The notes under the pieces were generated by a model. The model was not told where the DNA came from. It ran no database searches and was given only the letters and a program-made list of their open reading frames with translations. Both the position numbers and the translations under genes were made by a program. DNA of 64,000 bases from Sphingomonas sp. (lineage in GTDB: Bacteria > Pseudomonadota > Alphaproteobacteria > Sphingomonadales > Sphingomonadaceae): positions 62,001 through 126,000 of the forward strand of contig NZ_JAFKMA010000001.1 of the NCBI RefSeq assembly GCF_017304635.1, given 5' to 3'. Below, piece by piece: positions 7,276-63,880 of this stretch. Position 1 is the stretch's first letter. Every line of letters begins with the position of its first letter.

Positions 7276-7295
7276 TCGCGCCGTCACCGGGCCAA

Positions 7296-7333
7296 GAAAA
7301 AGGCCGCCATCTTCCGGGATGGCGGCCTTTTTT
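7296..7333. terminator. bidirectional rho-independent terminator
   Basis: Arms aaaaaggccgccatc and gatggcggccttttt form a near-perfect stem with a 6-base loop and a T-run on both strands. It lies between the convergent ends of the two TonB receptor genes (7275 and 7339), so it can serve both. Confidence 0.93.
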
Positions 7334-7338
7334 GTTAG

Positions 7339-9615: not shown

Positions 9616-9671
9616 GATGTAAAACCCCTTGCAGAAACGCGATGCGCCGCCCAGTCTCGAGCGGCGGCGGT

Positions 9672-10088
9672 TCAGGCGAGGGCAGGCGGTCCGGTCGCGG
9701 GAGGCGGCGGCGCGGCGAGCCCGCGCCCCGGGAGCATGGCCAACGTGGCGGCCAGCGCCGGCGCGGTATCGCGGCGGAGCGGGATGGCGATCGCGAGCGG
9801 CGGCGCCATGTCGAGCGCGGCGATCCCGGCGAAGGCGCAGGGGTGGTCAGCGCGACTGCCGTGATCCTGCTTGTGGTGATTGCCGTCATGGTGGCCCGCC
9901 ATCGGCATGGCCATCGGCTGGCCCGATGTCGTCGGCGCGGGCATGGCGCCATCGCATGGCATCAGCGCGATGCCGCCGTTCGCGGCGGCCATCGTCATAT
10001 ACCCCTGCGGCGTCAGCGCGCGCACCGACAGCGCCGCGATCAGCAGCACCAGCCAGACATATCGGCGCAGGGACCAGGCGGCAGCCAT
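9672..10088 (-). CDS. DUF2946-like His/Met-rich membrane-associated protein
   Basis: A 138-residue protein. The N-terminal hydrophobic segment (YVWLVLLIAALSVRAL) is followed by TPQGYMTM, then a His/Met/Cys-rich stretch (MAMPMAGHHDGNHHKQDH), CAFAG, a second hydrophobic segment, and a Pro-rich ATGPPALA tail. This pattern (R-A-L-x-P-x-G-F/Y-M near the N-terminus, His cluster, C-A-F, terminal GPPA) is typical of DUF2946. The cluster of His, Met and Cys could bind Cu or another soft metal. It is first in a two-gene unit with the TonB receptor and divergent from the sensor kinase gene. Confidence 0.78.
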   Translation of the reverse strand: MAAAWSLRRYVWLVLLIAALSVRALTPQGYMTMAAANGGIALMPCDGAMPAPTTSGQPMAMPMAGHHDGNHHKQDHGSRADHPCAFAGIAALDMAPPLAIAIPLRRDTAPALAATLAMLPGRGLAAPPPPATGPPALA

Positions 10089-10178
10089 CGCGCGCTCCTA
10101 TACGAGGGGATGGTTAATAAGCCATCGCTTTCGCCCGCTTTGCGCCCACGCGTGCCGCGGTGTAGGGAAGCGCCGCTG

Positions 10179-11330
10179 ATGGCCACGCTACCCGCCTCCG
10201 ACCTGCCGCCGCCCGCGCCGCCGCGCGGAGCCTGGCCCCCGGCGATCCTGTCGCAGCCGTTCTTCGAGAATAAGGGCCGCGCGTTCTGGCGGCTGCAGGC
10301 GATCGGCTGGTCGGGCTATCTCGTGCTGCGCTCGGTCTCGGCGATCTCGAACAATTTGCCGACCTCGGCGCTGGTCACCAACATCATCGAGGCGATCATC
10401 GGCTATTGCGTGACAGCGTTGCTGTCGACGCTCTACGGCTATTACCGCCGCCTGCCGCGGTTGAGCGAGGTGCTGCTGACGCTACTGACGCTCGGGGCGG
10501 CCACGCTCATCATCGCGACGCTCAACGCGTTCGCGTTCAGCCTGGTCAACCGGTTCGACAATCCCGGCCTGACGCTGCAACTCGTGCTGGGACAGCTGTT
10601 CCTGACGATGACGGTGCTCGCCGGGTGGACCGCGCTCTACTTCGGGATCAATTTCTACCTGATCGTCGAGGAGCAGTCGCACCAGCTCGAGCGATTGGAG
10701 ACGCAGGCGTCGTCGGCCCAGCTGGCGATGCTGCGCTACCAGCTCAACCCGCATTTCCTGTTCAACACGCTCAACTCGATCTCGACCTTGGTGCTGCTGA
10801 AGGAGACCGAGCGCGCCAATGCGATGCTGTCGCGGCTTGCCGATTTCCTGCGCTTCACCCTCGTCTATGAGCCGACCGCGCTCGTCACCGTCGCGCAGGA
10901 AGTGCAGACGCTGAAACTCTATCTCGAGATCGAGAAGATGCGCTTCGAAAAGCGGCTGCGCCCGGTGTTCGAGATCGACCCGCGCGCCGAACGCGCCCGG
11001 CTGCCCTCGCTGTTGCTGCAACCTTTGGTCGAAAACGCGATCAAATATGCGGTGACGCCGAGCGAGGAGGGGGCGGAGATCGCGGTTTCCGCACGGCTCG
11101 TCGGCGAACGCGTGCGGATCGCGGTTTCGGACACCGGTCCTGGCTTGATCGAGAACAAGTTGGGGCCGAGTCTTTCAACCGGCGTTGGGCTCGCCAATAT
11201 AAGGGACCGGTTGGTGCAGGCGTACGGGCCTGACCACCGGTTCGACGCTCGGTCTCTGCCAGGGGGCGGCTATGCTGTGGAGATCGAGATCCCGTACCAG
11301 TTGGACGATCCGAATAGAGAGGCCGCATGA
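10179..11330 (+). CDS. LytS/YehU-type sensor histidine kinase
   Basis: A 383-residue kinase of the His_kinase (PF06580) class. Start at ATG 10179 has AGGGAAG upstream; an in-frame ATG at 10110 would add 23 unconserved residues. Four hydrophobic segments lie between about residues 40 and 170. The phosphoacceptor motif is QLNPHFLFNTLNS (His192), followed by an HATPase domain with an N box (QPLVENAIKYAV), DTGPGL and a G-rich GVGLANIRDRL. It overlaps the response-regulator gene by 4 bases (ATGA), so the two form a two-component pair. No periplasmic sensor domain is visible; the signal is unknown. Confidence 0.93.
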   Translation: MATLPASDLPPPAPPRGAWPPAILSQPFFENKGRAFWRLQAIGWSGYLVLRSVSAISNNLPTSALVTNIIEAIIGYCVTALLSTLYGYYRRLPRLSEVLLTLLTLGAATLIIATLNAFAFSLVNRFDNPGLTLQLVLGQLFLTMTVLAGWTALYFGINFYLIVEEQSHQLERLETQASSAQLAMLRYQLNPHFLFNTLNSISTLVLLKETERANAMLSRLADFLRFTLVYEPTALVTVAQEVQTLKLYLEIEKMRFEKRLRPVFEIDPRAERARLPSLLLQPLVENAIKYAVTPSEEGAEIAVSARLVGERVRIAVSDTGPGLIENKLGPSLSTGVGLANIRDRLVQAYGPDHRFDARSLPGGGYAVEIEIPYQLDDPNREAA

Positions 11331-12133
11331 CTATCCGAACCATCCTGGTGGATGATGAAACCCTGGCGATCCAGGGACTTGAACTTCGCCTGAAGGCGCA
11401 TCCCGACGTCGAGATCATCGACCGCTGCTCGAATGGGCGGGAGGCGATCCGCAGCATCAAGACGAACAAGCCCGACCTCGTCTTTCTCGATATCCAGATG
11501 CCAGGCTTCGACGGCTTCTCGGTGGTGCAGGGCCTGATGGAGGTCGAGCCGCCGCTGTTCGTGTTCGTGACGGCCTATTCGGAACATGCCCTGCGCGCGT
11601 TCGAGGCGCAGGCGGTCGATTACCTGGTCAAGCCGGTCGAGGAATCGCGGCTGGCCGACACGCTCGAGCGCGTCCGCCAGCGGCTGACCGAGAAGCGCGG
11701 CGCCGAGGAAGTCGAGAAGTACAAGGAAGCGCTGGCCGAGGTGTCGCCCGAGGCGGCGGGCGAGATCGCCGATGCCGGCGGCGGCGACGGCCATTCGTCG
11801 AACCGCTTCGAAAAGCTCATCAACATCAAGGATCGCGGCAAGATCTTCCGCGTCGACGTCGATTCGATCGAAGTGGTCGAGGCGGCGGGCGATTACATGT
11901 GCATCAAGACCGGCGACAACACGCTGATCCTGCGCCAGACGATGAAGGACCTCGAAAAGCGGCTCGACCCGCGCCGGTTCCAGCGCGTGCATCGCTCGAC
12001 CATCGTCAACCTCGACCTGGTCCGCGAGGTGAAGCCGCACACCAACGGCGAATGCTTCCTGGTGCTCGATTCGGGCGGGCAGGTGAAGGTCAGCCGCAGC
12101 TATCGGGACGTGGTCGCGCGGTTCGTGCATTGA
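11327..12133 (+). CDS. LytTR-family response regulator
   Basis: A 268-residue regulator. The receiver domain has the acidic pair D9-D10, phosphoacceptor D55 in LVFLDIQMPG, and the conserved Lys in YLVKPVEES. The C-terminal LytTR DNA-binding domain starts near residue 160 (KLINIKDRGKIFRVDVDSIE) and includes FQRVHRSTIVNL, the classic LytTR core. It is translated with the upstream kinase through a 4-base overlap. Targets are unknown; the neighbouring TonB receptor pair is one possibility, on proximity alone. Confidence 0.95.
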   Translation: MTIRTILVDDETLAIQGLELRLKAHPDVEIIDRCSNGREAIRSIKTNKPDLVFLDIQMPGFDGFSVVQGLMEVEPPLFVFVTAYSEHALRAFEAQAVDYLVKPVEESRLADTLERVRQRLTEKRGAEEVEKYKEALAEVSPEAAGEIADAGGGDGHSSNRFEKLINIKDRGKIFRVDVDSIEVVEAAGDYMCIKTGDNTLILRQTMKDLEKRLDPRRFQRVHRSTIVNLDLVREVKPHTNGECFLVLDSGGQVKVSRSYRDVVARFVH

Positions 12134-12140
12134 CCTTGTT

Positions 12141-12249
12141 CCCCTCCCGCTTGCGGGAGGGGTAAGGGGTGGGCATACGCTCACCATGATCGACAACGCT
12201 TGAGAGGGGGCGGGTGCCCACCCCCGACCCCTCCCGCAAGCGGGAGGGG
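12141..12249. repeat. composite palindromic repeat (double hairpin)
   Basis: Two copies of a 22-bp palindrome built on CCCCTCCCGC and GCGGGAGGGG, at 12141-12162 and 12228-12249, lie in inverted orientation with a further GGGTGGGCA/TGCCCACCC match inside them. The whole could fold as one long stem or two hairpins. It starts 8 bp after the response-regulator stop and ends 6 bp before the next start codon, so its right edge (GGGAGGGGAGAG) acts as that gene's ribosome-binding site. Confidence 0.85.
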
Positions 12250-12255
12250 AGAGCA

Positions 12256-13008
12256 ATGCCGACGCCTTACGAAACCTTCGCCACGCTGCACGTCCCCGGC
12301 GACCCGCTCATCATCTATAATTGCTGGGATCCCGGCAGCGCCGTCGCGATCGCGCGGGCGGGGGCGAAGGCGATCGCGACCGGCAGCTACGGCGTCGCGG
12401 AGTCGCTCGGCTTCTGCGACGGCGAGAAGGCGCCGCTGCCCCATGTGCTCGACAATGCGCGGCGGATCATGAGTGTCGTCGACCTGCCCGTGTCGATCGA
12501 TTTCGAGGGCGGCTATGCCGTCGATCCGGCGGGTGTCGCCGCCAATCTCGGCAAGCTCGCCGCGACGGGCGCGGTCGGGTGCAACTTCGAGGATTCGGTG
12601 ATCGGCGGGGAGGGCGTACATCCGCTCGATGTCCAGGTCGCGCGGATCGCGGCGGCGCGGTGCGGGGCGGGAGAAGCCTTCTACATCAATGCGCGCTGCG
12701 ACCTGTACCTGCGGACGCCGCCGGAGCGCCACGATGCGAGCCTGCTCGACACCGTGGTCGATCGCGCGCAGGCCTATCTCGCGGCGGGCGGCAGCGGCAT
12801 CTTCGTGCCCGGCCTGCGCGATATCGCGACGATCGCGGCGATCGTGCGGCGCACCGACGCCAAGCTCAACGTCATCCCCGCACCGGGCGCCCCGACCCGC
12901 CCGCTGGCGGACGCCGGCGTCGCGCGCGTCAGCTACGGTCACGGCCCATGGGCCGCGACGATGCACTGGCTCGAGGATCAGGCGCGAGGGGCGATCGACT
13001 GGCGCTAA
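12256..13008 (+). CDS. isocitrate lyase/PEP mutase superfamily enzyme
   Basis: A 250-residue alpha/beta-barrel protein of the PEP mutase/isocitrate lyase superfamily. Visible motifs are YNCWDPGSAVAIARAGAKAI near the N-terminus, VSIDFEGGYA (metal-binding acidic residues) and GCNFEDSV. The KKCGH catalytic loop of true isocitrate and methylisocitrate lyases is absent, so it is probably a C-C or C-P lyase or hydrolase of unknown substrate. The ATG at 12256 was preferred to that at 12214 because the latter would translate the palindromic repeat; GGGAGGGGAGAG precedes 12256. Confidence 0.88.
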   Translation: MPTPYETFATLHVPGDPLIIYNCWDPGSAVAIARAGAKAIATGSYGVAESLGFCDGEKAPLPHVLDNARRIMSVVDLPVSIDFEGGYAVDPAGVAANLGKLAATGAVGCNFEDSVIGGEGVHPLDVQVARIAAARCGAGEAFYINARCDLYLRTPPERHDASLLDTVVDRAQAYLAAGGSGIFVPGLRDIATIAAIVRRTDAKLNVIPAPGAPTRPLADAGVARVSYGHGPWAATMHWLEDQARGAIDWR

Positions 13009-13014
13009 CCCGCC

Positions 13015-13032
13015 AAACTTGACAAACTTGAC
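13015..13032. repeat. tandem 9-bp direct repeat
   Basis: AAACTTGAC occurs twice head-to-tail in the 136-bp gap between the PEP-mutase-like gene and pyrE. No other feature is recognised in that gap. Confidence 0.6.
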
Positions 13033-13144
13033 GAGGGTACGGCCTGAACATTCCGCCGCCCCGGCCGTCGAAAGATGATCCGGTTCAGGCACTTCGTCGC
13101 TGCTGGCAGCGAAATTCCAACATCGCCAGCCAAACGCGCCGCAT

Positions 13145-13741
13145 CTATTCGACCGGCCGCTTGTCCTCCTCGGTCACGCCGAGATCGGTCGCGGTGAACA
13201 AGGCATGGAGCGTGATGCCGCGTTCGGCCAGCGTCGCGTCGGCGCCCTGTTCGCGGTCGAGGATGACGATCGCGTCGGTCATCACCGCGCCGGCCGCCGC
13301 GATCTGGTCGGCCGCCTTCAGGATCGACCCGCCGCTGGTCGCGACATCGTCGATCAGGACCACGTGCTTGCCCGCCAGCGTCTCGCCGCCGGCATCGTCG
13401 AGCCCCTCGACCATCAGCGAGGTGCCGTGCGCCTTCGCCGCCTTGCGCACGAACACCGCGCCGATCGGCCGGCCCGCGTCCCAGCTCGCCGCCGCGATCC
13501 CGCCGAGCAGCGGCACCGCGCCCATCTCCAGCCCGGCGACGTAATCCGCCGTCAGACCGTCCAGCACGCCGAGCAGCCCGCGCGCGCATTGCGCCGCGCC
13601 CTCGGGCGTCATCATCGTCGCCTTCATGTTGAAATAGACGCGGCTGCGCTTGCCCGACACGAGCAGGAAATCACCGCGCTTCAACGTGCGCGTCGCAAGC
13701 AAACGCCGCAGCGCCTCGCGGTCGTAGGTCGGTTTCGTCAT
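13145..13741 (-). CDS. pyrE: orotate phosphoribosyltransferase
   Basis: Converts orotate and PRPP to orotidine 5'-phosphate in de novo pyrimidine synthesis. The 198 residues include RSRVYFNMKA near the N-terminus, AGLEMGAVPL, FVRKAAKAHGT (the flexible catalytic loop with Lys) and the PRPP-binding motif VVLIDDVATSGGS (about 126-138). A GGAG ribosome-binding site precedes the ATG. No other pyr gene is adjacent; it is convergent with the PEP-mutase-like gene and lies 48 bp downstream of the S9 peptidase gene on the same strand. Confidence 0.96.
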   Translation of the reverse strand: MTKPTYDREALRRLLATRTLKRGDFLLVSGKRSRVYFNMKATMMTPEGAAQCARGLLGVLDGLTADYVAGLEMGAVPLLGGIAAASWDAGRPIGAVFVRKAAKAHGTSLMVEGLDDAGGETLAGKHVVLIDDVATSGGSILKAADQIAAAGAVMTDAIVILDREQGADATLAERGITLHALFTATDLGVTEEDKRPVE

Positions 13742-53850: not shown

Positions 53851-54054
53851 ATGCTGATGTCCAACACCGATCGCCCCGCCCGCTTGCACTATATGGCCAA
53901 CGGCTTTCGCGTGCTCAGCCCCGGCAGCCACGTGACCTGCGCCGTGTCGGGCGCCACGATCGACCTCGACGACCTGCGCTACTGGAGCGTGGCGAAGCAG
54001 GAGGCGTACGTGGACGCGGCGGCGGCATTGGCGGCCGAAACGACGAAACGATAA
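53851..54054 (+). CDS. DUF2093 protein
   Basis: A 67-residue protein. RPARLHYMANGFRVLSPGSH and VTCAVSGATIDLDDLRYWSV, then KQEAYVDAAAAL, match DUF2093. Two closely spaced starts exist (ATG 53851 and ATG 53857). The fold is beta-rich with one Cys; function is not known. It lies 28 bp after xseA on the same strand. Confidence 0.9.
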   Translation: MLMSNTDRPARLHYMANGFRVLSPGSHVTCAVSGATIDLDDLRYWSVAKQEAYVDAAAALAAETTKR

Positions 54055-54213: not shown

Positions 54214-54747
54214 CTAGTTTACACGATGGACGGAAAATCCCGGACGGTGAGCGATCGTTGCGAAGTACGAGCCTAGCGCGCCTCGCTTGATCGTCACGTC
54301 GGATCCCGGATCGATTCGACCGGCAACGACCTGATCGTCATCCTGAACCCAATTGGCGCCCTCCGTCGTCGTAAACCTGACTCGCCCGTCACCTGTCGAT
54401 CCAATCGAAATTATCTTTGAGGCGACTACGGATACCTCCTCGTCGCCGCGCACCGCTCCGCTGAACAACCGAATACGCGGCAGGCGCAATCCAAAGAGCG
54501 AGCGTTTGGCTTCGACAAGTTGGTAACTGTCAACCACGGCGACTTTTCCGTCACGCTCCGCTTGATCCAATTTCGAGACCTCGCGATCGAAGCAGGCAAG
54601 GCGCTGGTCGTGGTCGGTGAGCTTTTGGCACGACACAACCGACTCCAGTGCTTGTGATCGGGGCGGCTCGTTTTTGGCGCTGGCGGCGCTCGACAAACAT
54701 GCCGCTATCCCGGCGATCATCGACAACGACAGGCATCGATTCCACAT
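54214..54747 (-). CDS. exported protein of unknown function
   Basis: A 177-residue protein. GAGGGGAC precedes the ATG. The signal peptide (LSLSMIAGIAACLSSAASA) is followed by SVVSCQKLTDHDQRLACFDR, a Cys-pair motif common in exported proteins of sphingomonads, then RSLFGLRLPRIRLFSG and a beta-rich C-terminal half (GRVRFTTTEGANWVQDDDQV, then VTIKRGALGSYF). It is probably periplasmic. It is divergent from the third TonB receptor. Function is unknown; the 150 bp downstream hold nothing recognisable. Confidence 0.82.
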   Translation of the reverse strand: MWNRCLSLSMIAGIAACLSSAASAKNEPPRSQALESVVSCQKLTDHDQRLACFDREVSKLDQAERDGKVAVVDSYQLVEAKRSLFGLRLPRIRLFSGAVRGDEEVSVVASKIISIGSTGDGRVRFTTTEGANWVQDDDQVVAGRIDPGSDVTIKRGALGSYFATIAHRPGFSVHRVN

Positions 54748-54815
54748 TGCGGGTCCCCTCGGCCGCTGTTGCCAGAAAGTGACAGTTTTTTTACTTGCGT
54801 CACCGGAAACACCTT

Positions 54816-54852
54816 ACTCGTTTACAAGCGACAGTGCTGATTGCAAACGAGT
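54816..54852. promoter_or_regulatory. inverted repeat upstream of the third TonB receptor
   Basis: ACTCGTTT (54816-54823) and AAACGAGT (54845-54852) are perfect inverted 8-mers with a 21-base spacer, about 75-110 bp before the receptor start. This could be an operator or an RNA stem; no regulator is known. Confidence 0.4.
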
Positions 54853-54927
54853 GAAATACGACAGGGCTATTGAGCCATCCGCGAGTGATGGAGGTGCCTG
54901 CCGTGTAATTTAGCAAGGGATGTTCCG

Positions 54928-57900
54928 ATGATGAAATCCAAGGTAGCGCTCCAGCTGAGCGCAGCGCCCGTTGCGATTGGTCTAGCAATTGTGGCGATGC
55001 CCGCCGCCGCGCAGACCACGCCCGCACCGGAAACGCAGACCACGACGACCCCCGTCGTCGCTCAGACCGATACCAGCACCACGCCGCCTGCCGACATCGT
55101 CGTTACGGGTTCGCGCATCGCGTCCCCCAACCTTGCTTCCGTATCGCCGATCACGGTCGTGACGGCGCAAGAGCTGAAGCTCCAGGGCACGACTCGCGTC
55201 GAGGATATGCTCAATTCGCTGCCGCAGGTTTTCGCGAGCCAGGCTAGCACGGTGTCCAACGGCGCGACCGGTACGGCGACCGTCAACCTTCGCGGACTTG
55301 GTTCTGTTCGCACGCTGGTCCTGATCAATGGCCGTCGCCTCCTGCCGGGCGATCCCAACGACTCGTCGGCCGACTTGAATGCGATCCCGTCGTCGCTGAT
55401 CAAGCGTGTGGACGTCCTGACGGGCGGCGCTTCGGCGACGTATGGCGCGGACGCGGTTGCTGGCGTCGTCAACTTCGTCATGGATACCGACTTCACGGGT
55501 ATCCGGCTCGACGGTCAGTACAGCCTGTATAACCACGACAACCGTAGTACGATCACGCCGCCGCTTCTTGATGCGCGTACGAAGGCGGGCTTTGCCAATT
55601 ACGGCTATCCGACCGGTCAGGTTGCCGACGGCGGCGGTGTCGACACGACGCTCACCGTCGGTGCCGGCTTCGACGACAATCGGGGACATATCACCGGTTA
55701 TTTCGGATATCGTCGAGTCGACGCCATCAAGCAGAACCGGCGCGATTACAGTGCCTGTACCGTTCAGAACGCTTCGGCGACGGCGCTGCAGTGCGGCGGT
55801 TCGTCGACGTCGACGCCCGGCAATGCGGTTGTGTATCACAGCGGCACGTCGACTTTCTATCAGATCGGCGCCAACAGAACCCTGATACCCGGCCGGACGC
55901 GTTACAACTTTGCTCCGACCAACTATTATCAGCGTCCGGACGAACGGTACACGGCGGGCTTCTTCGCGCACTATGACGTGAACGACTCGATCAAGCCGTA
56001 CGCCGAGTTCATGTTCATGGACGATCGGTCGGTAGCGCAGATCGCGCCGTCGGGCGATTTCGGTAACACGCTAACGATCAATTGCGACAATCCTCTGCTC
56101 TCGTCGCAAGCCAAGACGATTGCGTGCGCGCAGGAAAACCTGGTCAATGGTTTCTTGGGTACCTTCCCGCTCACGCAGAAGACCAACGCCACCGGAACGC
56201 CGATCAACTTCATCGATCCGACCACCGGGCAGATATACAATAAGGGCTTCTTCCAGCTCCTGCGCCGCAATGTCGAAGGCGGGCCCCGTCAGGACGACCG
56301 TGAACACACCGAGTATCGCGGCCTCGTCGGTATGAAGGGCGATCTCGGCAAGCCATGGTCCTACGACGCTTATTATCAGTACGGTCGTACGCTGTTCGCC
56401 GAAACGTATAACAACGACGTCTCTGTTTCTCGACTGACCAAGGCGCTTGACGTGGTCACCGGGCCGAACGGGACGCCGATCTGTCGGTCGGTTCGGGACG
56501 GCACCGATCCCAACTGCGTTCCGTACGATATCTTCGGTCAGAACGTGACGCCGGCTGCGATTGCGTATCTGTCGACGCCGGGTTTCCAGCGCGGCGTTCT
56601 TTCCGAGCAGGTCGCCAGCGGCTCGATCACCGGCCGGCTCGGTGAGTATGGGATCAAGAGCCCGTGGGCGAACGAGGGCATTTCGATCAACGTCGGTGCG
56701 GAATATCGCAAGGAAAAGCTCGATCTCACGGTCGATCAGGAGTTCGCGACCGGCGACTTGAGCGGTCAGGGTGGTGCGACGTTGCCGATCTCGGGCAGCT
56801 ATCACGTCACCGAGTTCTTCGGCGAAGCGCAGGTTCCGCTGGTCCGCGATAGTTTCTTCAACGATCTTACGCTGTCCGGTGGCTATCGCTACTCCAGCTA
56901 TTCGCTGAGCAACGGTCGAGCGTTCAATACCGATACGTACAAGCTGGGTGTCGAATTCGCTCCGGTACGCGATATCCGTTTCCGTGCGAGCTATAACCGC
57001 GCGGTGCGGGCGCCGAACATTCAGGAATTGTTCGCCACGCAGCACGTGGCTCTCGACGGATCGACCGATCCGTGCGCGGGCCGCGTCATCACGGCGGCCG
57101 ACGTCGGCTGTATCGCAACTGGCTTGCGCGTCGGTCAGTCGACTCCGTCCAATCCGGCTGGTCAGTATAACGGCCTGATCGGCGGCACGCCGACGCTGAA
57201 CCCCGAGCGGGCGACCACCAAGTCGTTCGGCGTCGTGCTCCAGCCGCGCTTCATGCCGCGGTTTGCGCTCAGCGTCGATTATTATGACATCAAGGTGACG
57301 AACGCGATCCAGGGCTTCGGCGCGGACGCGATCATCACGACCTGCGTGGCAAGCCAGAATCCGCTGGCTTGCGGCCTTATCCATCGCAATCCGGTCAGCG
57401 GGTCGCTTTGGTTGACGACCGATGGGTATATCACGGATATCGCTGCCAATATCGGCGGCGTGAGCACGAAGGGCATCGACGTCAACGGCAGCTATTCGGC
57501 ACCGGTCGGAAGCCTCGGTACGGCGTCGCTGAGCTTGGTCGGAACGTATCTCGACAAGTTCACCACCAACAACGGCCTGTCGCAGCCGTATGACTGCGCC
57601 GGATATTATGGCGTTATCTGCGGCGTGCCTGCGCCGAAGTGGCGTCACAAGTTGCGCGCTGGCTTCACGTTCCAGAACGGCATCGGCATTTCGGCGCAGT
57701 GGCGGTATTTCGGACCGGTCAAGGTCGATTATTCGAGCTCGAACCCGTCGCTTTCGCAGGCCGGATATTTCGCGTTCGGTTCGCGCATCAGCGGCCAGAG
57801 CTATTTCGATCTGGCATCGACGTTCGTCATCGGCGATCATTACACGTTCCGGCTCGGCGCGAACAATCTGCTCGACCGGCAGCCACCGCTGGTGACGTCG

Positions 57901-58020
57901 GGCAATGCTGCGGGTTCGCTGAGCGCGTGCCCGACCGGCTTCTGTAACGGCAATACTTATCCGGCGGTCTACGACGCGCTGGGCCGGTACCTGTACGCGT
58001 CGGTGACGCTCAAGTTCTGA
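54928..58020 (+). CDS. TonB-dependent receptor, large (1030 residues)
   Basis: Outer-membrane receptor. The start has AAGGGA; the signal peptide is rich in Ala and ends near AAAQ (VAIGLAIVAMPAAAQ), with a Thr/Pro-rich segment after it. The TonB-box-like DIVVTGSRI precedes a plug domain with VNLRGLGSVRTLVLINGRRL and VDVLTGGASATYGADAVAGV. A long barrel follows, with a GEYGIKSPW segment and RASYNRAVRAPNIQELFA, ending ASVTLKF. No CarboxypepD-type extension is present. It resembles receptors adjacent to modification enzymes in sphingomonads and xanthomonads; substrate unknown. A terminator follows. Confidence 0.93.
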   Translation: MMKSKVALQLSAAPVAIGLAIVAMPAAAQTTPAPETQTTTTPVVAQTDTSTTPPADIVVTGSRIASPNLASVSPITVVTAQELKLQGTTRVEDMLNSLPQVFASQASTVSNGATGTATVNLRGLGSVRTLVLINGRRLLPGDPNDSSADLNAIPSSLIKRVDVLTGGASATYGADAVAGVVNFVMDTDFTGIRLDGQYSLYNHDNRSTITPPLLDARTKAGFANYGYPTGQVADGGGVDTTLTVGAGFDDNRGHITGYFGYRRVDAIKQNRRDYSACTVQNASATALQCGGSSTSTPGNAVVYHSGTSTFYQIGANRTLIPGRTRYNFAPTNYYQRPDERYTAGFFAHYDVNDSIKPYAEFMFMDDRSVAQIAPSGDFGNTLTINCDNPLLSSQAKTIACAQENLVNGFLGTFPLTQKTNATGTPINFIDPTTGQIYNKGFFQLLRRNVEGGPRQDDREHTEYRGLVGMKGDLGKPWSYDAYYQYGRTLFAETYNNDVSVSRLTKALDVVTGPNGTPICRSVRDGTDPNCVPYDIFGQNVTPAAIAYLSTPGFQRGVLSEQVASGSITGRLGEYGIKSPWANEGISINVGAEYRKEKLDLTVDQEFATGDLSGQGGATLPISGSYHVTEFFGEAQVPLVRDSFFNDLTLSGGYRYSSYSLSNGRAFNTDTYKLGVEFAPVRDIRFRASYNRAVRAPNIQELFATQHVALDGSTDPCAGRVITAADVGCIATGLRVGQSTPSNPAGQYNGLIGGTPTLNPERATTKSFGVVLQPRFMPRFALSVDYYDIKVTNAIQGFGADAIITTCVASQNPLACGLIHRNPVSGSLWLTTDGYITDIAANIGGVSTKGIDVNGSYSAPVGSLGTASLSLVGTYLDKFTTNNGLSQPYDCAGYYGVICGVPAPKWRHKLRAGFTFQNGIGISAQWRYFGPVKVDYSSSNPSLSQAGYFAFGSRISGQSYFDLASTFVIGDHYTFRLGANNLLDRQPPLVTSGNAAGSLSACPTGFCNGNTYPAVYDALGRYLYASVTLKF

Positions 58021-58046
58021 GCAAGCTAACGCAGTTGAGCTGACAG

Positions 58047-58077
58047 GGCGGCGGGCTTTGGTCCGCCGCCTTTTTTT
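58047..58077 (+). terminator. rho-independent terminator after the third TonB receptor
   Basis: ggcggcgg and ccgccgcc form an 8-bp stem with an 8-base loop followed by seven T. It lies 26 bases after the receptor stop, so the following sulfotransferase gene needs its own promoter or read-through. Confidence 0.92.
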
Positions 58078-58163
58078 GCGCGTGCCCAATATGGCAAATT
58101 TGACTGTTACGGCTCGCTTTCGGCGGATTCTTTCTTTTGCAGATCGGGTTGGCGGCCTATTTG

Positions 58164-60182
58164 ATGGAGATGAACACGACGACGATGACTGCCCGCGCGA
58201 CCGAGGAGGCAATGCGTATCGCGTTGACTGCGGCGCGTCGCGGCGATGTGGCAACGGCACGCCAAATCGGTGAACAGGCGCTGCTGGGTGATCCTCAGTC
58301 TCCACAGTTGCATGCAATGTTGGGAATGCTGTGCTGTCGGATCGGTGATTTCGCCGCCGGCGCGAGCCATCTCCGGCAAGCCCACGCCGCATTTCCGAAC
58401 GACGTTACCATCGCGTGCAATTTGATTACCGCGTTGACCGAACAAGGCGACATTGCAGGAGCGCTATCTGTCTGCACGCCATCGCTTGCGGATGGTGACC
58501 GCTCGTTTCGATTGTGGCGGATGCGAGGCTATCTTCTGCAGCAAAGCGAGCAATTCGCCGCGGCAGCTGATGCATATCGATGTGTCGTTCGTGAAGCTGA
58601 GGACGATTTCGAAAGCTGGAACAATCTGGGCAATGCCTGTGCAGGCGCAGGCGATCTGGAGGGGAGTGTTCAAGCGTTGCGGCGAGCCGTCGCACTTCGT
58701 CCCGATGTCGCTCCCGTGCGGATCAATCTGGCCGCGACCTTGGTTGCAGCGGAGCAGTGGGACGAGGCAATCGATGTCTTGCAAGCGATGGCGAGCGAAT
58801 TTCCTGGTGACGCCAAGCCGCTGATCGAACTGTGTGCTTTGTTCAAGCAACTCGCGCGTGATCCGGAAGCGCTTGATGCGTTGGAAGAAGCAGTAAGGCG
58901 TGATGCCGGAGACTCCGATTTGCAAGTCAAGCTTGGGGTCGAGCGTATCATCGGTTGGCAGATGGATGCCGCTGGCGATGCTTTTAGGAATGCGATCAAG
59001 CTCGATCCGAGTCATCGCGATGCGCATGTCTTGCTTGGTGTCCTGCTTGAACACACGAACAGGTCGGAGGAGTTCCCGGCCCTCATCGAACTCGCGAAGC
59101 GAAACGATATCCAGTCCGGTGCGATCGATTTCATTCGTGCGCTTCAGCTTCGTCGAGAGCGACGGTTTGCCGAGGGTCTGGTTGCGCTCAAGACAGTGCC
59201 CGACGATGTCGAGCCGATCCGACGGTTGCAGTTGGCGGGCCAGTTTCACGATCGGCTGGGGGACGTCGACGCCGCTTTTACCGCATTCGCCGAAATGAAC
59301 CGGATCCAGATGGAGGATCCTTCGCAACCCCTGCGGCGCGCCGCGGAATACCGCGAGGCGTTGACCGTCGATCGCAGCATCGTGACACCCGATTGGTATG
59401 AAAGCTGGATACCCTTCGTACCTGACGACGAATTCACCAGTCCGGTCTTCCTCGTGGGTTTTCCGCGATCGGGAACGACTTTGCTGGATACGATGCTGAT
59501 GGGGCATCCTGACGTACAGGTGATGGAGGAACTGCCGCCCTTGACTCGGGTCGAACAGGAACTGGGGAGTATCGAGCGTCTTGCAAAGCTCGATCACGAC
59601 GCCGTTTCCGCGCTCCGTCGTACATATTTCGACAATGTCGACCAGCTTATCGATCGTCGACCGGGGGCTTTGCTCGTCGACAAGTTTCCTCTGCATCTAA
59701 ACAAGGTGCCGATCATTCACCGGCTATTTCCTGACGCTCGCTTCATATTGGCGATGCGTCACCCGTGCGACGTCTTGTTGAGTTGCTACATCACCAATTT
59801 CCGCCTCAACAATGCCATGGTGAACTTCCTGGATCTCGATACGGCGGCTTGGGTATACGATCAGACCTTCGCGTTCTGGAAGCAGTCGAGCTTGCTGATG
59901 CGTATTTCGCTGCATCAGGTTACCTACGAAGGAATGGTGGCCGACACCGCAGGAGAATTACGGCCACTCTTCGATTTCCTAGACCTGGATTGGCATGAAT
60001 CTGCGCTCGACCATCAACGAACTGCCGCCGAACGGGGAACGATTTCCACCGCGAGCTATTCGCAGGTCACCGAACCGATCTATGCGCGTTCGGCAGGTCG
60101 TTGGCAGCGTTATCGTCGACAGTTGGCACCGATACTGCCTGTTCTCAAGCCATGGATCTCGCAATACGGATACGATGATTGA
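58164..60182 (+). CDS. TPR-repeat sulfotransferase
   Basis: About 672 residues. The N-terminal half (to about 400) is TPR repeats (SWNNLGNACAGAGDLEGSVQ; WDEAIDVLQAMASEFPGDAK). The C-terminal half is a PAPS-dependent sulfotransferase: FLVGFPRSGTTLLDTMLMGH is the 5'-phosphosulfate loop, FILAMRHPCDVLLSCYITNF the 3'-phosphate motif. The domain pair is known for enzymes that sulfate tyrosine, sugars or small molecules. Start 58164 is one of several close ATGs (58170, 58185), and the frame also opens at TTG 58137. It lies 144 bp after the receptor. Codon use looks less GC-rich than housekeeping genes. Confidence 0.9.
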   Translation: MEMNTTTMTARATEEAMRIALTAARRGDVATARQIGEQALLGDPQSPQLHAMLGMLCCRIGDFAAGASHLRQAHAAFPNDVTIACNLITALTEQGDIAGALSVCTPSLADGDRSFRLWRMRGYLLQQSEQFAAAADAYRCVVREAEDDFESWNNLGNACAGAGDLEGSVQALRRAVALRPDVAPVRINLAATLVAAEQWDEAIDVLQAMASEFPGDAKPLIELCALFKQLARDPEALDALEEAVRRDAGDSDLQVKLGVERIIGWQMDAAGDAFRNAIKLDPSHRDAHVLLGVLLEHTNRSEEFPALIELAKRNDIQSGAIDFIRALQLRRERRFAEGLVALKTVPDDVEPIRRLQLAGQFHDRLGDVDAAFTAFAEMNRIQMEDPSQPLRRAAEYREALTVDRSIVTPDWYESWIPFVPDDEFTSPVFLVGFPRSGTTLLDTMLMGHPDVQVMEELPPLTRVEQELGSIERLAKLDHDAVSALRRTYFDNVDQLIDRRPGALLVDKFPLHLNKVPIIHRLFPDARFILAMRHPCDVLLSCYITNFRLNNAMVNFLDLDTAAWVYDQTFAFWKQSSLLMRISLHQVTYEGMVADTAGELRPLFDFLDLDWHESALDHQRTAAERGTISTASYSQVTEPIYARSAGRWQRYRRQLAPILPVLKPWISQYGYDD

Positions 60183-60394
60183 GGGCGGATCGCGATGACG
60201 GGCTCGTCCTTGCCAATGCGCCCGGATCGGTTGCATAACATGGTGTGGCCCGAATTATGACGTGCACGCTAGAATCGGGGTCGAAGGTCTCGATTCGCAT
60301 TTTCCGTGCGCAGGTCGCATCGCGACGTTGTTCCTCATGACCAATATGCTGTCCGCTTTATCATGAAAGCAGACGGCGTGGACTTCATTGCTTC

Positions 60395-61903
60395 ATGAGC
60401 TTTGCCGCCGCGCTTTCGCAGGCGCGGCGGATGCCGTTCGATGTCGCCACGCTGGAATGGTTGGCGGAAACGGCGCTTGCCGAAGACGGCGAAATCGATG
60501 CTCTGACGCTGGTCGAACGTGCGGCCGAAGCCGGAAACGACGCGCGGCTTTGGCAATGGACCGGTCTGTTATATCGGTCGCTAGCCGACCACCGCCGAGC
60601 CATCGCGGCATTCAAGCGTGCCACGATGGCGGCTCCGGATGATCCGCTGATCGCACGAGGCAGCGCTCAGGTCGCTTTGGAAGCCGGCATACCGGCAGTC
60701 GCGTCGTTTGATCGGGCATTGCAGCTTGCGCCATTATCGGACGACGCTGTGTTCGGCTTGGCGGCTGCCCGCTTGGCGTCCGGCGATGGAAGTGGCGCCA
60801 TGGCTGGTCTGGCAGCCGTCGTTTCGGCACATCCGACATGGACAAGTGGTCATGAGCGGTTGAGCCAGTTGCGTTGGATGCTGGGCGACAGGACCGCGGC
60901 GACGACATCGTTCGACGAGGCGCTTGCCCAGTTACCCGACAATATTCCGCTGTGGCAGACGCTGATCGCAATCTTGTCTCGCAGTCGACAATTCGACGCG
61001 GCGCTTACCGCGATTGCACGGGCTCGGTTCCGTATCGGCGCTGCACCGTTCCTTGATGCCTACGAGGCGGTGGCCGCATCGGAACTTGGTGACGAGGCGA
61101 AAGGCGATCGGTTGTTCGCTCGCCTGGCCGAGTCAGCCGATCCGATGCTCGCTGTACATCGCGTACGCCACCTGTTGCGTTTTCGTCGCGTCGACGAAGC
61201 TGCAACGTTGATCGAGCCTCGGCTCGTTGCCGAAGATCCCTTGTTATGGCCATACGCAGCTATCGTTTGGCGTCTCAATGGCGATCCGAGAATTGCGTGG
61301 CTTGAGCAGCCCGCTCTCGTTTCGGTGATCGACTTGGCGGACGTGCTGCCTCCTTTGGACGAATTGGCCGATCATCTCACCGCGCTGCATCGTGCGACCG
61401 ACCGCCATCTCGACCAGTCGGTCCGCGGCGGTACGCAAACGGATGGCGATTTGCTGTTGAGGATCGACCCGCTCATCGTCGCGCTGCGTATGGCGATATT
61501 GGACGCGGTGAAAGACCATCTCGACAAATTGCCCGTAGGCGACGGCAGGCATCCGATCTTGATGCATCGTCGTGATCGGCCAATACGGCTGGCGGGGTCG
61601 TGGTCGGTGCGTCTTGCCGGCGCTGGTTTCCATGACAGTCACATCCATCCGGCTGGCTGGTTCAGTTCGGCCCTCTACATCGCATTGCCGGATGCGGTGA
61701 CACGCGGCGAAGACAATAGCGGCTGGCTGGCGCTTGGAGCACCCCCGCGAGAGTTTGCCAATGACCTCGGTCCGTCGCGATTGATCGAGCCGAAACCGGG
61801 TCGCCTTGTGCTGTTCCCTTCGACGATGTGGCACGCAACCCTGCCATTCGCTGACGGTGAACGGCTGACGGTTGCCTTCGACGTCGCTCGGCCGCGGCCG
61901 TGA
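60395..61903 (+). CDS. TPR-repeat putative 2OG-Fe(II) oxygenase
   Basis: A 502-residue protein. The N-terminal 280 residues are TPR-like (LWQWTGLLYRSLADHRRAIA; FDRALQLAPLSDDAVFGLAA). The C-terminal 170 residues contain HDSHIHPAGWFSSALYIALP and GRLVLFPSTMWHATLPFADG, then RLTVAFDV, matching the 2OG-FeII_Oxy_5 type of double-stranded beta-helix dioxygenase: His, Asp-like and distal His plus Arg appear present. It may hydroxylate a peptide or small molecule. No ribosome-binding site precedes ATG 60395; ATG 60431 has AGGCG. It is 212 bp after the sulfotransferase gene, with no feature in that gap. Confidence 0.87.
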   Translation: MSFAAALSQARRMPFDVATLEWLAETALAEDGEIDALTLVERAAEAGNDARLWQWTGLLYRSLADHRRAIAAFKRATMAAPDDPLIARGSAQVALEAGIPAVASFDRALQLAPLSDDAVFGLAAARLASGDGSGAMAGLAAVVSAHPTWTSGHERLSQLRWMLGDRTAATTSFDEALAQLPDNIPLWQTLIAILSRSRQFDAALTAIARARFRIGAAPFLDAYEAVAASELGDEAKGDRLFARLAESADPMLAVHRVRHLLRFRRVDEAATLIEPRLVAEDPLLWPYAAIVWRLNGDPRIAWLEQPALVSVIDLADVLPPLDELADHLTALHRATDRHLDQSVRGGTQTDGDLLLRIDPLIVALRMAILDAVKDHLDKLPVGDGRHPILMHRRDRPIRLAGSWSVRLAGAGFHDSHIHPAGWFSSALYIALPDAVTRGEDNSGWLALGAPPREFANDLGPSRLIEPKPGRLVLFPSTMWHATLPFADGERLTVAFDVARPRP

Positions 61904-61908
61904 TTGCA

Positions 61909-62865
61909 CTACATCGCTAACCGCGCCTCGGCTAACCGGTTGGCGGCTGCTTTGCCGCCTGCCTGATCGACCAGTTCTTGCGCCTCCGCGATTTCGGGAG
62001 CGAGCACGACTTCCAACGCCGCACGTCGAGCCAATCGCGCATCGTTATCGAACGGAATGGTCGAGTCCTTCGAATAGGTGGCCAGCAATCCGCCGTTTAT
62101 CGTCGCGTCGATGGTGGCCTTTGTTGAACATATGCCGAGATGTTGCGCGGCGCGCTCAATGATGGGCGCGGGGGCGGCGAAGAACGCCTCGGTCTCGATC
62201 ACTCGGGCCCGCGGCATAGTGTCGACGGCGCTGGCAAACGCACGAGTCTGCGCAAGCCAGAGCGCCGCAACTCGTCGAGCATCCGATGATCCGGATAGAT
62301 CGCCGAGATACTGCGCAAGGCGCGTGGTCAACGTGCGTAACCAGGCGCGGTGACCATCGCTGCGCAGGATGGCGAGGAGATAGTCGCGAAGCTCGCAGTG
62401 CAAAAATATCGCCGGGGCGGAGGGATCAAGCTCGATGAGGCCGTCCAACAGAAAGTTGACCGGGACGTTTGCTTTGATGATGGTCGGCGCATCGGCTCGG
62501 TAGCGCTTGCTAAGCATCGCGACGACCATCGGCAGGCGAGTGCGATCGCCGATTATGGCCGTCTGGCGCAGAGCGACAGGCTCGCGCATAATGATGTTAC
62601 TCGCCGGATCGTCGAGCGCTCGCGCCAAAAGGGTGGATCCACAGTGCGCCATGTGAAAGATCCAGCCCACCGGTAACGCCGGCGGCGATGATGCGATCAA
62701 CTCCGTGATCGATCGGCGTCGCGACCCCTCAGCGGCAAGCGAAATACGTCCGTCGAGAAAGATCGATCGATGATAGGCGTCGCGATCCATCTCCACAAAA
62801 ATCGCGTCGGGACCATCGAACGAATGGAGAAAATGATCAGGCGATGTGAAGAGGTCGTCTGTCAT
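61909..62865 (-). CDS. P-loop sulfotransferase-like protein
   Basis: A 318-residue protein. GWIFHMAHCGSTLLARALDD is a P-loop resembling the sulfotransferase 5'-PSB motif, but the usual Arg before Ser-Gly-Thr-Thr is replaced by His-Cys. The conserved helix LHCELRDYLLAILRSDGHRA could be the 3'-phosphate site. ATG 62865 begins MTDDLFTSP; the frame continues upstream to 62946 without support. It is convergent with the TPR-oxygenase (5 bp between stops) and divergent from the TauD-like gene (49 bp). Confidence 0.78.
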   Translation of the reverse strand: MTDDLFTSPDHFLHSFDGPDAIFVEMDRDAYHRSIFLDGRISLAAEGSRRRSITELIASSPPALPVGWIFHMAHCGSTLLARALDDPASNIIMREPVALRQTAIIGDRTRLPMVVAMLSKRYRADAPTIIKANVPVNFLLDGLIELDPSAPAIFLHCELRDYLLAILRSDGHRAWLRTLTTRLAQYLGDLSGSSDARRVAALWLAQTRAFASAVDTMPRARVIETEAFFAAPAPIIERAAQHLGICSTKATIDATINGGLLATYSKDSTIPFDNDARLARRAALEVVLAPEIAEAQELVDQAGGKAAANRLAEARLAM

Positions 62866-62914
62866 ACGCAACCTATAGCGTGGGTGGTTGGCGGTCGCTA
62901 TCCTGCTTACCGTT

Positions 62915-63880
62915 ATGACAGCCGTGCGATTGCCCGACGCCGCCACTCCCTATGTGCTCATTGAGCGGACGAATGAGCGCGATGTTCTCGAGGTCGATCC
63001 TGCAACGATCATCGATCTGTACCGAACGCATGGCGCTATCCTGCTACGAGGATTCTGCGCGGACGCCGTTCATTTTCGAGACTTTGCGCGGCAGTTTTGC
63101 GCGACGGCGGTAGTCAACGAAAGTCGGGGGAGGCAACCGATCGACGCCGCTCATCATATCCATGCGGTGGATGCCGGAACGCGGGCATTTGCGCTTCATC
63201 CTGAGTTGGCACGCGAGCCATGGAAGCCCGACGTTGCGATGTTCGGATGCCTGTCGGCACCGAGCGTCGGCGGTCGAACCACGATTTGCGATGGCGTGGC
63301 CCTCAATCGTGCGTTGCCAGAGGTAGTCCGGTCGGGCTTGGCGGGGCGTCGCCTCGTTTATGTCATGCCGACATGGCCGGCATTGCTGGAATATTGGTTA
63401 GGTTCCGGCGAGCCCGATGATGCATTGTTGTCTAGTCCGCCGCAATCGTGCCCCTACCGTTTCGAGCGGAGGGGGGACAGGGTCGTCCGATATTTTTCAA
63501 GACCGGCATTACACCGCCCGATGTTCATCGACGCTCCCGCATTCGGAAATTTCCTGCTGTTTGCGCGATTCAATAATAACCGGACGGATTTTCCCTTGCT
63601 CGATGACGGGACGTCGGTTCCTGAGGTGTGGTTGCAGTCGATCAAGTCGGCTGGCGACCGGATTGCCACCGAGATATCGTGGCAATCCGGTGATGTGCTG
63701 ATGCTCGACAACACGCGGTTCATGCACGGGAGAACCGCGATCGTCGACGGGGGAACGCGTCTGGTCGCGACCTTCTTCGGTTACCTCAAGTTTGCCTGTC
63801 CGAATCCGGAAGAACCCGTCGACGCGATATGGCGGCGAGAGGATTTTCGACCGCCACTTCCTCCAGATCTGGTACGATGA
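62915..63880 (+). CDS. TauD/TfdA- or clavaminate-synthase-like dioxygenase
   Basis: A 321-residue Fe(II)/2-oxoglutarate oxygenase. RTHGAILLRGFCADAVHF is the typical N-terminal motif (H-G-x-x-L-L-R-G-F), and FALHPELAREPWKPDVAMFG with CLSAPSVGGRTTICDG contain the first His and Glu of the metal site (HxE), while DNTRFMHGRTAI and RLVATFFGYL give the distal His and Arg. Substrate unknown. ATG 62915 was chosen; the frame also has TTG 62888. It completes the receptor-linked modification cluster. Confidence 0.85.
   Translation: MTAVRLPDAATPYVLIERTNERDVLEVDPATIIDLYRTHGAILLRGFCADAVHFRDFARQFCATAVVNESRGRQPIDAAHHIHAVDAGTRAFALHPELAREPWKPDVAMFGCLSAPSVGGRTTICDGVALNRALPEVVRSGLAGRRLVYVMPTWPALLEYWLGSGEPDDALLSSPPQSCPYRFERRGDRVVRYFSRPALHRPMFIDAPAFGNFLLFARFNNNRTDFPLLDDGTSVPEVWLQSIKSAGDRIATEISWQSGDVLMLDNTRFMHGRTAIVDGGTRLVATFFGYLKFACPNPEEPVDAIWRREDFRPPLPPDLVR

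Follow-up and report, generated by a model that had tools for sequence, protein, structure and literature searches.

The locus at the end of the window, the 64,000-nucleotide stretch of Sphingomonas sp. DNA analyzed here, raises the question of why the gene for a TonB-dependent receptor (TBDR) stands beside genes for sulfotransferase-type proteins and 2OG oxygenases, and on which substrate these enzymes may act. Five adjacent genes had been proposed in a preliminary description. All of them were present at the coordinates given there, four with Pfam domains, and the locus begins one gene before the TBDR gene, with the divergently oriented gene for UP177:

54214..54747, minus strand: UP177, an exported protein of 177 amino acids, the N-terminus of which looks Sec-type by eye; its gene diverges from that of the TBDR
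54928..58020, plus strand: TBDR of 1030 amino acids (PF00593, 5.4e-33; PF07715, 3.4e-24)
58045..58072, plus strand: terminator-like hairpin after the TBDR gene, 12 pairs followed by a T-run
58164..60182, plus strand: TPR-sulfotransferase, TPR-ST (PF13469, 8.7e-34, plus TPRs)
60395..61903, plus strand: TPR-2OG-Fe(II) oxygenase (PF13759, 1.8e-20, plus TPRs)
61909..62865, minus strand: P-loop-A, a divergent sulfotransferase-like protein and TauD partner (no family in Pfam or NCBIfam at E 0.01)
62915..63880, plus strand: TauD/TfdA-family 2OG oxygenase (PF02668, 6.7e-25)

The P-loop-A gene is convergent with that of the TPR-2OG oxygenase and divergent from that of TauD. The TBDR and enzyme genes probably do not form one simple operon because a strong terminator-like stem follows the TBDR gene; its fold z-score was −3.0, and 0 of 200 shuffles were equally stable. 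No RNA elements were found at the locus at the gathering score. In the genome of the window, the sole PF13469 gene found, the sole PF02668 gene found, and the sole P-loop relative all adjoin one of 31 TBDR genes.

Domain scores exceeded the curated cut-off for TPR-ST (118.1 bits for PF13469 compared to a cut-off of 27), for the TPR-2OG oxygenase (73.6 bits for PF13759, cut-off 27), and for TauD (88.9 bits for PF02668, cut-off 27). TPR-ST carries GFPRSGTTL and RHPCDVLLS, presumably the PAPS-binding motifs, and is a putative sulfotransferase predicted to use PAPS as the sulfate donor for side chains of a protein. An HxE pattern occurred in 50 of 54 TauD sequences and a distal His in 52 of 54; the TauD of the window has both (HPE and NTRFMHGR), and this HxD/E...H set is taken to represent the metal ligands. 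Of the two sulfotransferase-type proteins proposed before, TPR-ST could be retained, while P-loop-A yielded only weak profile matches. The P-loop-A protein of the window had no sulfotransferase match in Pfam above cut-off, one of 20 relatives matched PF13469 (at 7.6e-4), and hhalign aligned the family weakly and collinearly with that of TPR-ST (E values of 2.3e-4 and 9.9e-5 at probabilities of 44 and 58%). In place of the PRSGTT-type loop of TPR-ST, which is absent, P-loop-A has AHCGSTLL.

None of the cassette enzymes has a signal peptide by eye. Three catalytic domains, each joined to TPRs, were found in the same neighborhood: ST, PF13759, and, in relatives, AspH (PF05118 in 14 of 14 TPR-AspH proteins). 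The locus of the window itself contains no PF05118; two AspH-profile matches were obtained elsewhere in this genome (G000), of which the one listed lies in a frame of 304 residues, with 18 of 41 candidates scored. A common origin of the TPRs of TPR-ST and the TPR-2OG oxygenase was considered and rejected, the TPR similarity being weak (E 0.003).

Comparison with relatives revealed a conserved, modular locus that often adjoins clpB. The enzyme sets vary and draw on TPR-ST, TPR-PF13759, TPR-AspH, two sulfotransferase-like P-loop types, and TauD; order and strand of the genes vary as well. In relatives, the PF13759 gene is often swapped for that of a TPR-AspH hydroxylase, and the exact five-gene set is therefore not the conserved unit. 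That four or more of the five genes would occur together, as expected beforehand, was borne out in part: four genomes of the genus (L034 to L037) have TBDR, TPR-ST, P-loop-A, and TauD together. At least one enzyme was encoded at 34 of 48 UP177-TBDR loci and none nearby at the other 14; when 11 loci found through the P-loop gene were excluded, enzymes remained at 23 of 37. These 48 loci leave out L071 (overlapping calls) and 5 UP177 genes that lack a TBDR gene in divergent orientation, and include two near-identical copies from one genome (L068, L088).

TPR-AspH genes were located within 12 kb of 26 of the 49 UP177 sites in the genus, compared to 0.32 expected at random, and 30 of the 47 TPR-AspH genes of the genus were near UP177. 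The genome co-occurrence table of both (30/11/2/18) gave a Fisher p of 4.5e-6, not corrected for kinship. Seventeen of the 47 TPR-AspH sites were away from UP177, and for 13 of them neither relocation nor a contig end accounts for this; 8 of these 13 stretches were read and had no TBDR match above 45 bits. For PF13759, 12 of 38 genes were within 12 kb of UP177, counted over long-frame rows. The neighborhood counts leave out the weak UP177 rows G013:C131, G043, G038:C5, and the second G000 fragment as well as weaker or unlisted AspH rows, and the genome searches for UP177, AspH, and SMC (see below) scored part of the first-look candidates in most genomes. Outside the Sphingomonadales, only scattered cases appeared (L112, L162, L163, L167, L180, and L199). 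Eight of nine distant TPR-AspH loci were without an adjacent TBDR match. The TBDR profile was built from the subfamily of this locus and misses distant barrels such as that of L163.

A second view started from the P-loop gene, through which the best 80 of 269 relatives were located. Among these, the P-loop-A gene was accompanied by that of TauD in 50 of 51 loci, and in three gammaproteobacterial contigs the two were fused. This tie to TauD by pairing and fusion provides a functional handle for a P-loop family without Pfam or NCBIfam match. The loci of the other type, P-loop-B, had a TBDR gene in the stretch in 41 of 42 cases and TPR-AspH in 30 of 42; 30 of the 51 P-loop-A loci had no TBDR match in the stretch, some stretches being short and the L163 barrel being missed by the profile. 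SMC, a family of small exported C..TGS..C proteins, was encoded in 25 of the 42 P-loop-B loci and in three genomes is located with the enzymes, away from the TBDR gene. It had no match in the genome of the window (86 of 124 first-look candidates scored). SMC was rejected as a universal substrate on these grounds and kept as a lead.

Do receptor and enzymes share their history? For the loci whose stretch includes clpB, raw p-distances were correlated with control for clpB. The partial r was 0.82 to 0.91 for TBDR and AspH, 0.78 to 0.79 for TBDR and P-loop-B, and 0.79 for TBDR and TPR-ST, but 0.21 to 0.43 for TBDR and UP177, far below the enzymes although UP177 adjoins the TBDR gene. AspH and P-loop-B compared to UP177 gave 0.31 to 0.47. 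Separate phylogenies, named beforehand as an observation against a joint system, were looked for in the TBDR tree and the distance correlations and not found. Enzyme content was phylogenetically structured across the TBDR tree, after removal of 11 of 92 TBDRs as near-identical and with L052 to L054 scored by hand as enzyme-bearing, their enzymes being encoded elsewhere in these genomes. When the TBDRs were screened for candidate target residues, the strongest columns were an inserted Ser/Thr, present in 49 of 52 TBDRs with P-loop genes and in 1 of 29 lacking them, and an Asn or Asp, present in 16 of 19 with TauD and 0 of 62 without; both are uncorrected for kinship and resemble clade markers. 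Three genomes of one lineage retain every enzyme even though the enzyme genes are unlinked from that of the TBDR, which speaks for a joint system. Membership of the genes in one cassette is well supported. Co-divergence would also result if linked genes were transferred as a block or if the TBDR recognized a product.

UP177 has a helical N-terminal part with a C..RL.C motif and a C-terminal beta domain; its AlphaFold2 model had a mean pLDDT of 76.6 and a pTM of 0.42. Eight of 11 members matched VasI at an E value up to 1, the best at 3.1e-5 and that of the window at 0.13. As a conserved core partner UP177 was rejected. It marks the site but follows clpB (r 0.56 to 0.77) more than the TBDR (r 0.42 to 0.66) and was therefore taken as a backbone neighbor and a less likely substrate.

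The claim of less GC-saturated codon use proved right, with a GC3 of 0.63 to 0.77 in UP177 and the five genes, whereas three genes upstream reached 0.80 to 0.89 and clpB reached 0.90. A different history had been suggested from it, which is right only in part. Recent horizontal import as the reason for the low GC3 was rejected; among eight loci checked, the dip appeared in L037, L067, L074, and L081 and hardly in L035, L064, and L077. The site between UP177 and clpB is common to many relatives, whereas TBDR and enzymes track clpB only loosely (for the TBDR, r 0.22 to 0.65, and 0.58 to 0.65 in stricter sets). An anti-phage defense system was also considered and rejected, the six proteins giving 0 PADLOC matches at 1e-5.

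On which molecule might the cassette act? The reading tentatively preferred, at somewhat less than an even chance, is a receptor-centered tailoring cassette, the cytoplasmic enzymes of which hydroxylate and sulfate a protein before its export. In the cytoplasm, the TPR arrays would bind a polypeptide, most likely the TBDR precursor itself, the side chains of which would then be hydroxylated and sulfated by the catalytic domains. The P-loop/TauD pair may be a self-contained two-step unit, possibly also with other targets. The modification may alter binding of ligands, phages, or bacteriocins by exposed TBDR loops, and swapping of cassettes at the clpB site could diversify the surface. TPRs usually bind proteins. 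Two enzymes of the locus have TPRs, and no inner-membrane transporter is encoded within the locus of the window; for these reasons, we lean toward enzymes that modify the receptor rather than a receptor that imports their substrate.

Alternatively, the enzymes may produce or complete an exported small molecule or peptide, such as a metallophore, a signal, or a RiPP, with the TBDR as the cognate re-uptake receptor, comparable to methanobactin operons. This is less likely but a serious rival. A cognate product and its receptor should co-diverge, as was observed, small molecules are often the substrates of TauD-type 2OG oxygenases, and SMC with its 25 of 42 P-loop-B loci and, in three genomes, its place beside the enzymes would suit such a product. 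SMC is unmatched among the 86 of 124 candidates scored in the genome of the window, however, the MbnB-type enzyme (PF05114) is absent from it, the main enzymes bear TPRs, and no NRPS, peptidase, or exporter is encoded among the six genes from the small neighbor of xseA to clpB. Import of an outside ligand, a peptide, glycan, or other polymer that the cytoplasmic enzymes modify or detoxify, is improbable. It would follow the classic logic of TBDR loci, and nine cysteine columns conserved above 80% in the TBDRs of this family fit it, but no transporter, hydrolase, or catabolic gene recurred between the TBDR gene and clpB in the loci read, and, to our knowledge, degradation does not typically proceed by sulfation or AspH-type hydroxylation.

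A similarly improbable explanation is a hitch-hiking block, in which unrelated genes stay together only because they have shared a permissive site next to clpB. Linked genes are co-inherited, the enzyme content is structured along the TBDR tree, and the three genomes in which every enzyme was kept though unlinked from the TBDR gene trace to one lineage. On the other side, co-divergence with the TBDR is weaker for UP177, the nearest gene, than for the enzymes, the genes differ in order and strand between loci, P-loop and TauD are found fused, and the same enzyme kinds recur together with TBDRs in other families (L100, L112, L162, and L163). Least probable of all is action on envelope lipids or glycans, the TBDR linkage reflecting envelope co-regulation. 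The AspH-type enzymes LpxO and OlsC hydroxylate lipids, and sulfotransferases can sulfate sugars; indeed, among eight queries, with the approximate stretch L120 disregarded, the NCBIfam models OlsC and LpxO matched the TPR-AspH relatives L050 (4e-23 and 2.5e-10) and L074 (2.1e-26 and 9.6e-18). These scores reached at most 92.6 bits compared to equivalog cut-offs of 450 and 500, and this reading would leave unexplained both the TPRs and why the enzymes co-diverge so tightly with a single TBDR subfamily.

Should tailoring of the receptor be correct, it could extend to a system widespread in sphingomonads, in which TPR-guided enzymes hydroxylate and sulfate the TBDR within the cytoplasm before its export, with exchangeable TPR-ST, TPR-AspH, TPR-PF13759, and P-loop-TauD modules giving a lineage-specific surface chemistry and the sulfotransferase-like protein and TauD, paired or fused, acting as a new two-component enzyme; this wider claim is doubtful. 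TBDRs decide on nutrient uptake and on entry of phages or bacteriocins, and we know of no established hydroxylation or sulfation of outer-membrane transporters after translation. A receptor combined with changing tailoring enzymes was not found described in the open-license literature searched. The locus offers a tractable and testable case, combining a single TBDR and defined enzymes with enzyme swaps and unlinked variants that occur in nature.

Known systems resemble parts of this cassette. RaxST of Xanthomonas sulfates a tyrosine of RaxX in the cytoplasm before export, and RaxST and the human TPST enzymes are presumably of the same Sulfotransfer_3 type as TPR-ST; the window locus differs by its TPR array and the adjoining TBDR and 2OG oxygenase genes, and no exporter or peptide was seen there. 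Human AspH, the aspartyl/asparaginyl beta-hydroxylase, has a TPR plus oxygenase layout, as has the enzyme of the relatives, the catalytic domain of which matches human AspH structures at about 1e-43; the latter is bacterial and, by eye, cytoplasmic, and the window has a TPR-PF13759 oxygenase instead. Cytoplasmic decoration ahead of Sec export occurs in some autotransporters, in which TibC-type heptosyltransferases decorate an outer-membrane protein; TibC performs glycosyl transfer with another fold, while sulfation and hydroxylation are predicted for the window locus. The best PDB match of the P-loop family was a weak C-terminal profile match to the CurM sulfotransferase (PDB 4gbm, E 0.014), compared to which the PRSGTT-type loop is altered and the partner is TauD. 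None of the genes of this locus encodes an assembly enzyme for a siderophore or RiPP, MbnB (PF05114) had 0 matches in G000, and no small exported ORF that could be a precursor peptide was recognized at the locus among the 25 largest ORF groups listed. Group II methanobactin (mbn) operons contain, according to the excerpted text of PMC3621798, a TonB-dependent transporter and a sulfotransferase for which a role in tailoring of the peptide is proposed. The window locus likewise pairs a TonB-dependent receptor with a sulfotransferase, but of the TPR-PF13469 instead of the PF00685 type, and adds 2OG oxygenases and the P-loop/TauD pair, which are not among the methanobactin features described in that excerpt (PMC3621798).

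All five genes that led the preliminary description to propose a receptor-sulfation-hydroxylation cluster were present as claimed in the window (positions 62001-126000 of contig C7; genome size, 3.18 Mb), and its observation was sound and even understated, the cassette being conserved, modular, and co-diverging. The locus starts one gene before that of the TonB-dependent receptor (TBDR), with a divergent gene for an exported protein of 177 residues ("UP177"), and is followed by a gene which we take to be clpB (locus stretch L032).

53851-54054, + strand, conserved frame of 67 residues, located between xseA and UP177
54214-54747, - strand, UP177
54928-58020, + strand, TBDR
58164-60182, + strand, TPR protein with PF13469 domain ("TPR-ST")
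60395-61903, + strand, TPR protein with PF13759 domain ("TPR-2OG")
61909-62865, - strand, P-loop protein
62915-63880, + strand, TauD-like protein (PF02668)

The TPR-2OG and P-loop genes are convergent, those for the P-loop protein and TauD are divergent with an ATG-to-ATG gap of 49 bases, and a terminator-like hairpin is located directly 3' of the TBDR gene. Clustering of 48 locus stretches recovered the 67-residue frame, without an export signal as judged by eye, in 26; it was counted as backbone because it is also present at the enzyme-free loci L052 and L053, and is probably a housekeeping neighbor. GC3 was 0.63 to 0.77 across 54214-63880 versus 0.80 to 0.90 in three upstream genes and clpB. 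A GC3 dip at the locus was also visible in some relatives, for instance in stretches L037, L067, L074, and L081. Elsewhere in the window, 3988-7275 encodes a large, presumably Oar-like receptor whose N-terminal part is carboxypeptidase-regulatory-like, and a presumed TBDR gene is convergent with it (7339-9615); this pair is followed by a frame taken to be a LytS-like histidine kinase (9642-11330).

With all first-look candidates scored, the genome contained one site each for PF13469, PF02668, and relatives of the P-loop protein, all three at the window locus, in addition to 4 PF13759 and 31 TBDR sites. Outside the window, a further PF13759 gene that has a TPR-like portion as judged by eye is divergent from and adjoins another TBDR gene (L192, G000:C7:35000-54900, about 5445-9608). 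A second UP177-TBDR pair without tailoring enzymes adjoins a gene with an alanine-racemase domain (L089, G000:C3:219000-238900, about 9400-13200).

The P-loop protein had matches in 31 of 100 genomes searched, with orthologues of 53-55% identity in seven genus members besides the own genome. In neighborhoods of relatives, read as stretches of up to 20 kb, the recurring order was UP177 divergent to TBDR, a variable enzyme set, and often clpB. A recurring extra enzyme that does not occur in the window combines TPRs with an AspH domain ("TPR-AspH"; PF05118 in 14 of 14 members). In several species, a second TPR-AspH paralogue is positioned on the opposite strand directly behind the first (L046:12866-14041, L049:12644-13819, L057, and L058). 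At least one of the enzymes was found at 34 of 48 UP177-TBDR pairs and none at 14, or at 23 of 37 when the 11 loci reached via the P-loop gene were left out. TPR-AspH was at most 12 kb from UP177 at 26 of 49 UP177 sites, compared to 0.32 expected for random placement in 4-Mb genomes, and the UP177 and AspH searches placed UP177 near 30 of 47 TPR-AspH genes. Over 61 genus genomes, the presence of both was associated (both, 30; UP177 only, 11; AspH only, 2; neither, 18; Fisher p 4.5e-6, kinship ignored).

A P-loop profile scan of one genome per species (84,980 species) yielded 269 relatives; the best 80 represented 79 distinct loci, which were annotated together with L112 from the class search. 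These 80 loci comprised 3 with a fusion, 51 with the window type ("P-loop-A"), and 42 with a second type ("P-loop-B"), both types being present in 16. In this set, P-loop-A stretches contained TauD in 50 of 51 cases, TBDR in 21, TPR-ST in 19, and TPR-AspH in 18; P-loop-B stretches contained TBDR in 41 of 42, UP177 and TPR-AspH in 30 each, small exported proteins with a C..TGS..C core in 25, and TPR-ST in 23. In the loci read, P-loop-A adjoins TauD, mostly divergently but convergently in L158. In three gammaproteobacterial metagenome contigs, both form one reading frame of 665-681 residues, each half matching its own profile at 1e-70 or better, which gives this unnamed family of P-loop proteins a link to a TauD oxygenase.

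L161:2-1999, fusion, cut by the contig end
L162:9953-11998, fusion, with TPR-ST nearby together with a TBDR
L164:9971-12016, fusion, adjoined by TPR-ST

On a Parvularculaceae contig (L163), two TPR-ST-profile genes flank a TonB-type barrel beside a TauD/P-loop pair; Pfam at 1e-5 gave only sulfotransferase domains for the one of the two that was scanned.

In a tree of 52 TBDRs, the loci grouped by enzyme set. On a tree of 81 TBDRs, each of five enzyme labels needed fewer changes than in any of 200 shuffles (TauD, 4 versus a shuffle minimum of 13; PF13759, 7 versus 9). With clpB as the yardstick of organism history (n, 16-36), TBDR distances correlated with those of TPR-AspH (r, 0.86-0.92; partial, 0.82-0.91), P-loop-B (0.83-0.84; partial, 0.78-0.79), and TPR-ST (0.81; partial, 0.79; n, 18). 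Those of UP177 followed less closely, though it is a neighbor (0.42-0.66; partial, 0.21-0.43), and partial correlations of AspH or P-loop-B with UP177 were 0.31-0.47. The correlation with clpB was 0.56-0.77 for UP177 and, for TBDR, 0.22-0.34 in wider and 0.58-0.65 in stricter sets. This indicates that TBDR and enzymes behave as a single unit and that UP177 resembles the chromosome more closely. The UP177 values are lowered since this protein is short and divergent; linkage itself accounts for part of what remains. We are highly confident that TBDR and enzymes are one functional unit.

The UP177-TBDR pair is isolated in three genomes (G009, G037, and G042), where a TPR-ST/P-loop-B/AspH group is located elsewhere and the P-loop-A/TauD pair is at a third place. 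Their TBDR, TPR-ST, P-loop-B, and UP177 are nearest to the counterparts in L036, which has all parts together; for AspH, L060 and L036 are about equally close. Retention of the set after relocation points to a continuing mutual dependence of its parts, and because all three belong to one lineage, this was probably one event.

The association has limits. Away from UP177 were 17 of the 47 genus TPR-AspH sites: the three unlinked ones, one next to a TBDR fragment where a contig ends (G007), and 13 others, including a partial match in G027, of which the 8 stretches read gave no TBDR match above 45 bits. Among TPR-AspH stretches from other alphaproteobacterial families, 8 of 9 were without an adjacent TBDR match; weak matches were 8-9 kb off in the distant L195 and L196, and a short contig (L199) carried UP177, AspH, and a TBDR piece. 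No TBDR match was in the stretch at 30 of the 51 P-loop-A loci (best 80 of 269 relatives plus L112), and the P-loop profile matched in 13 of 289 genomes of the class, with matches better than 1e-50 in only three of them. The association is therefore found mainly in Sphingomonadales, and cases in other groups are scattered.

TauD kept the HxE...H set and TPR-ST the PAPS motifs, with roles that we presume for both. TPR-2OG contains HIHPAGW and WHATLPFADGER patterns, also found in 8 and 7, respectively, of 15 other TPR-2OG sequences scanned. The P-loop protein has AHCGSTLL in place of PRSGTT, and weak profile evidence makes it a putative sulfotransferase-like protein. Among relatives, a family of small exported proteins, mostly about 70-95 residues long and sharing a C..TGS..C..EW core, is encoded among the enzyme genes in many cases, at the following and other sites; no match was found among 86 of 124 candidates scored in the own genome.

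L035:13203-13475, small exported protein
L039:9198-9461 and 9544-9798, two small exported proteins
L074:13653-13925, small exported protein

As judged by eye, TBDR, UP177, and this family have signal peptides and the enzymes have none. The TPR arrays would bind a polypeptide substrate of the enzymes, as suggested by their position on three different catalytic domains. TBDR is the first candidate for this substrate because it is the sole exported protein found to co-diverge tightly with the enzymes and also to be present in nearly every P-loop-B locus. The main alternative is that the enzymes act on a peptide or metabolite recognized by TBDR, and a search for TBDR residues tracking each enzyme gave only apparent clade markers. 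Modification of TBDR itself, or of an exported partner, is thus a tentative reading that may well be wrong.

PADLOC gave no match for the locus, and the association of a TBDR with tailoring enzymes was not named among the literature matches listed (open-licence papers). The methanobactin core protein MbnB is missing from the own genome. In methanobactin operons, a TonB-dependent transporter is accompanied in Group II by a sulfotransferase (PMC3621798), which is the nearest published precedent found for what is a conserved, modular, and co-diverging TBDR-tailoring cassette.
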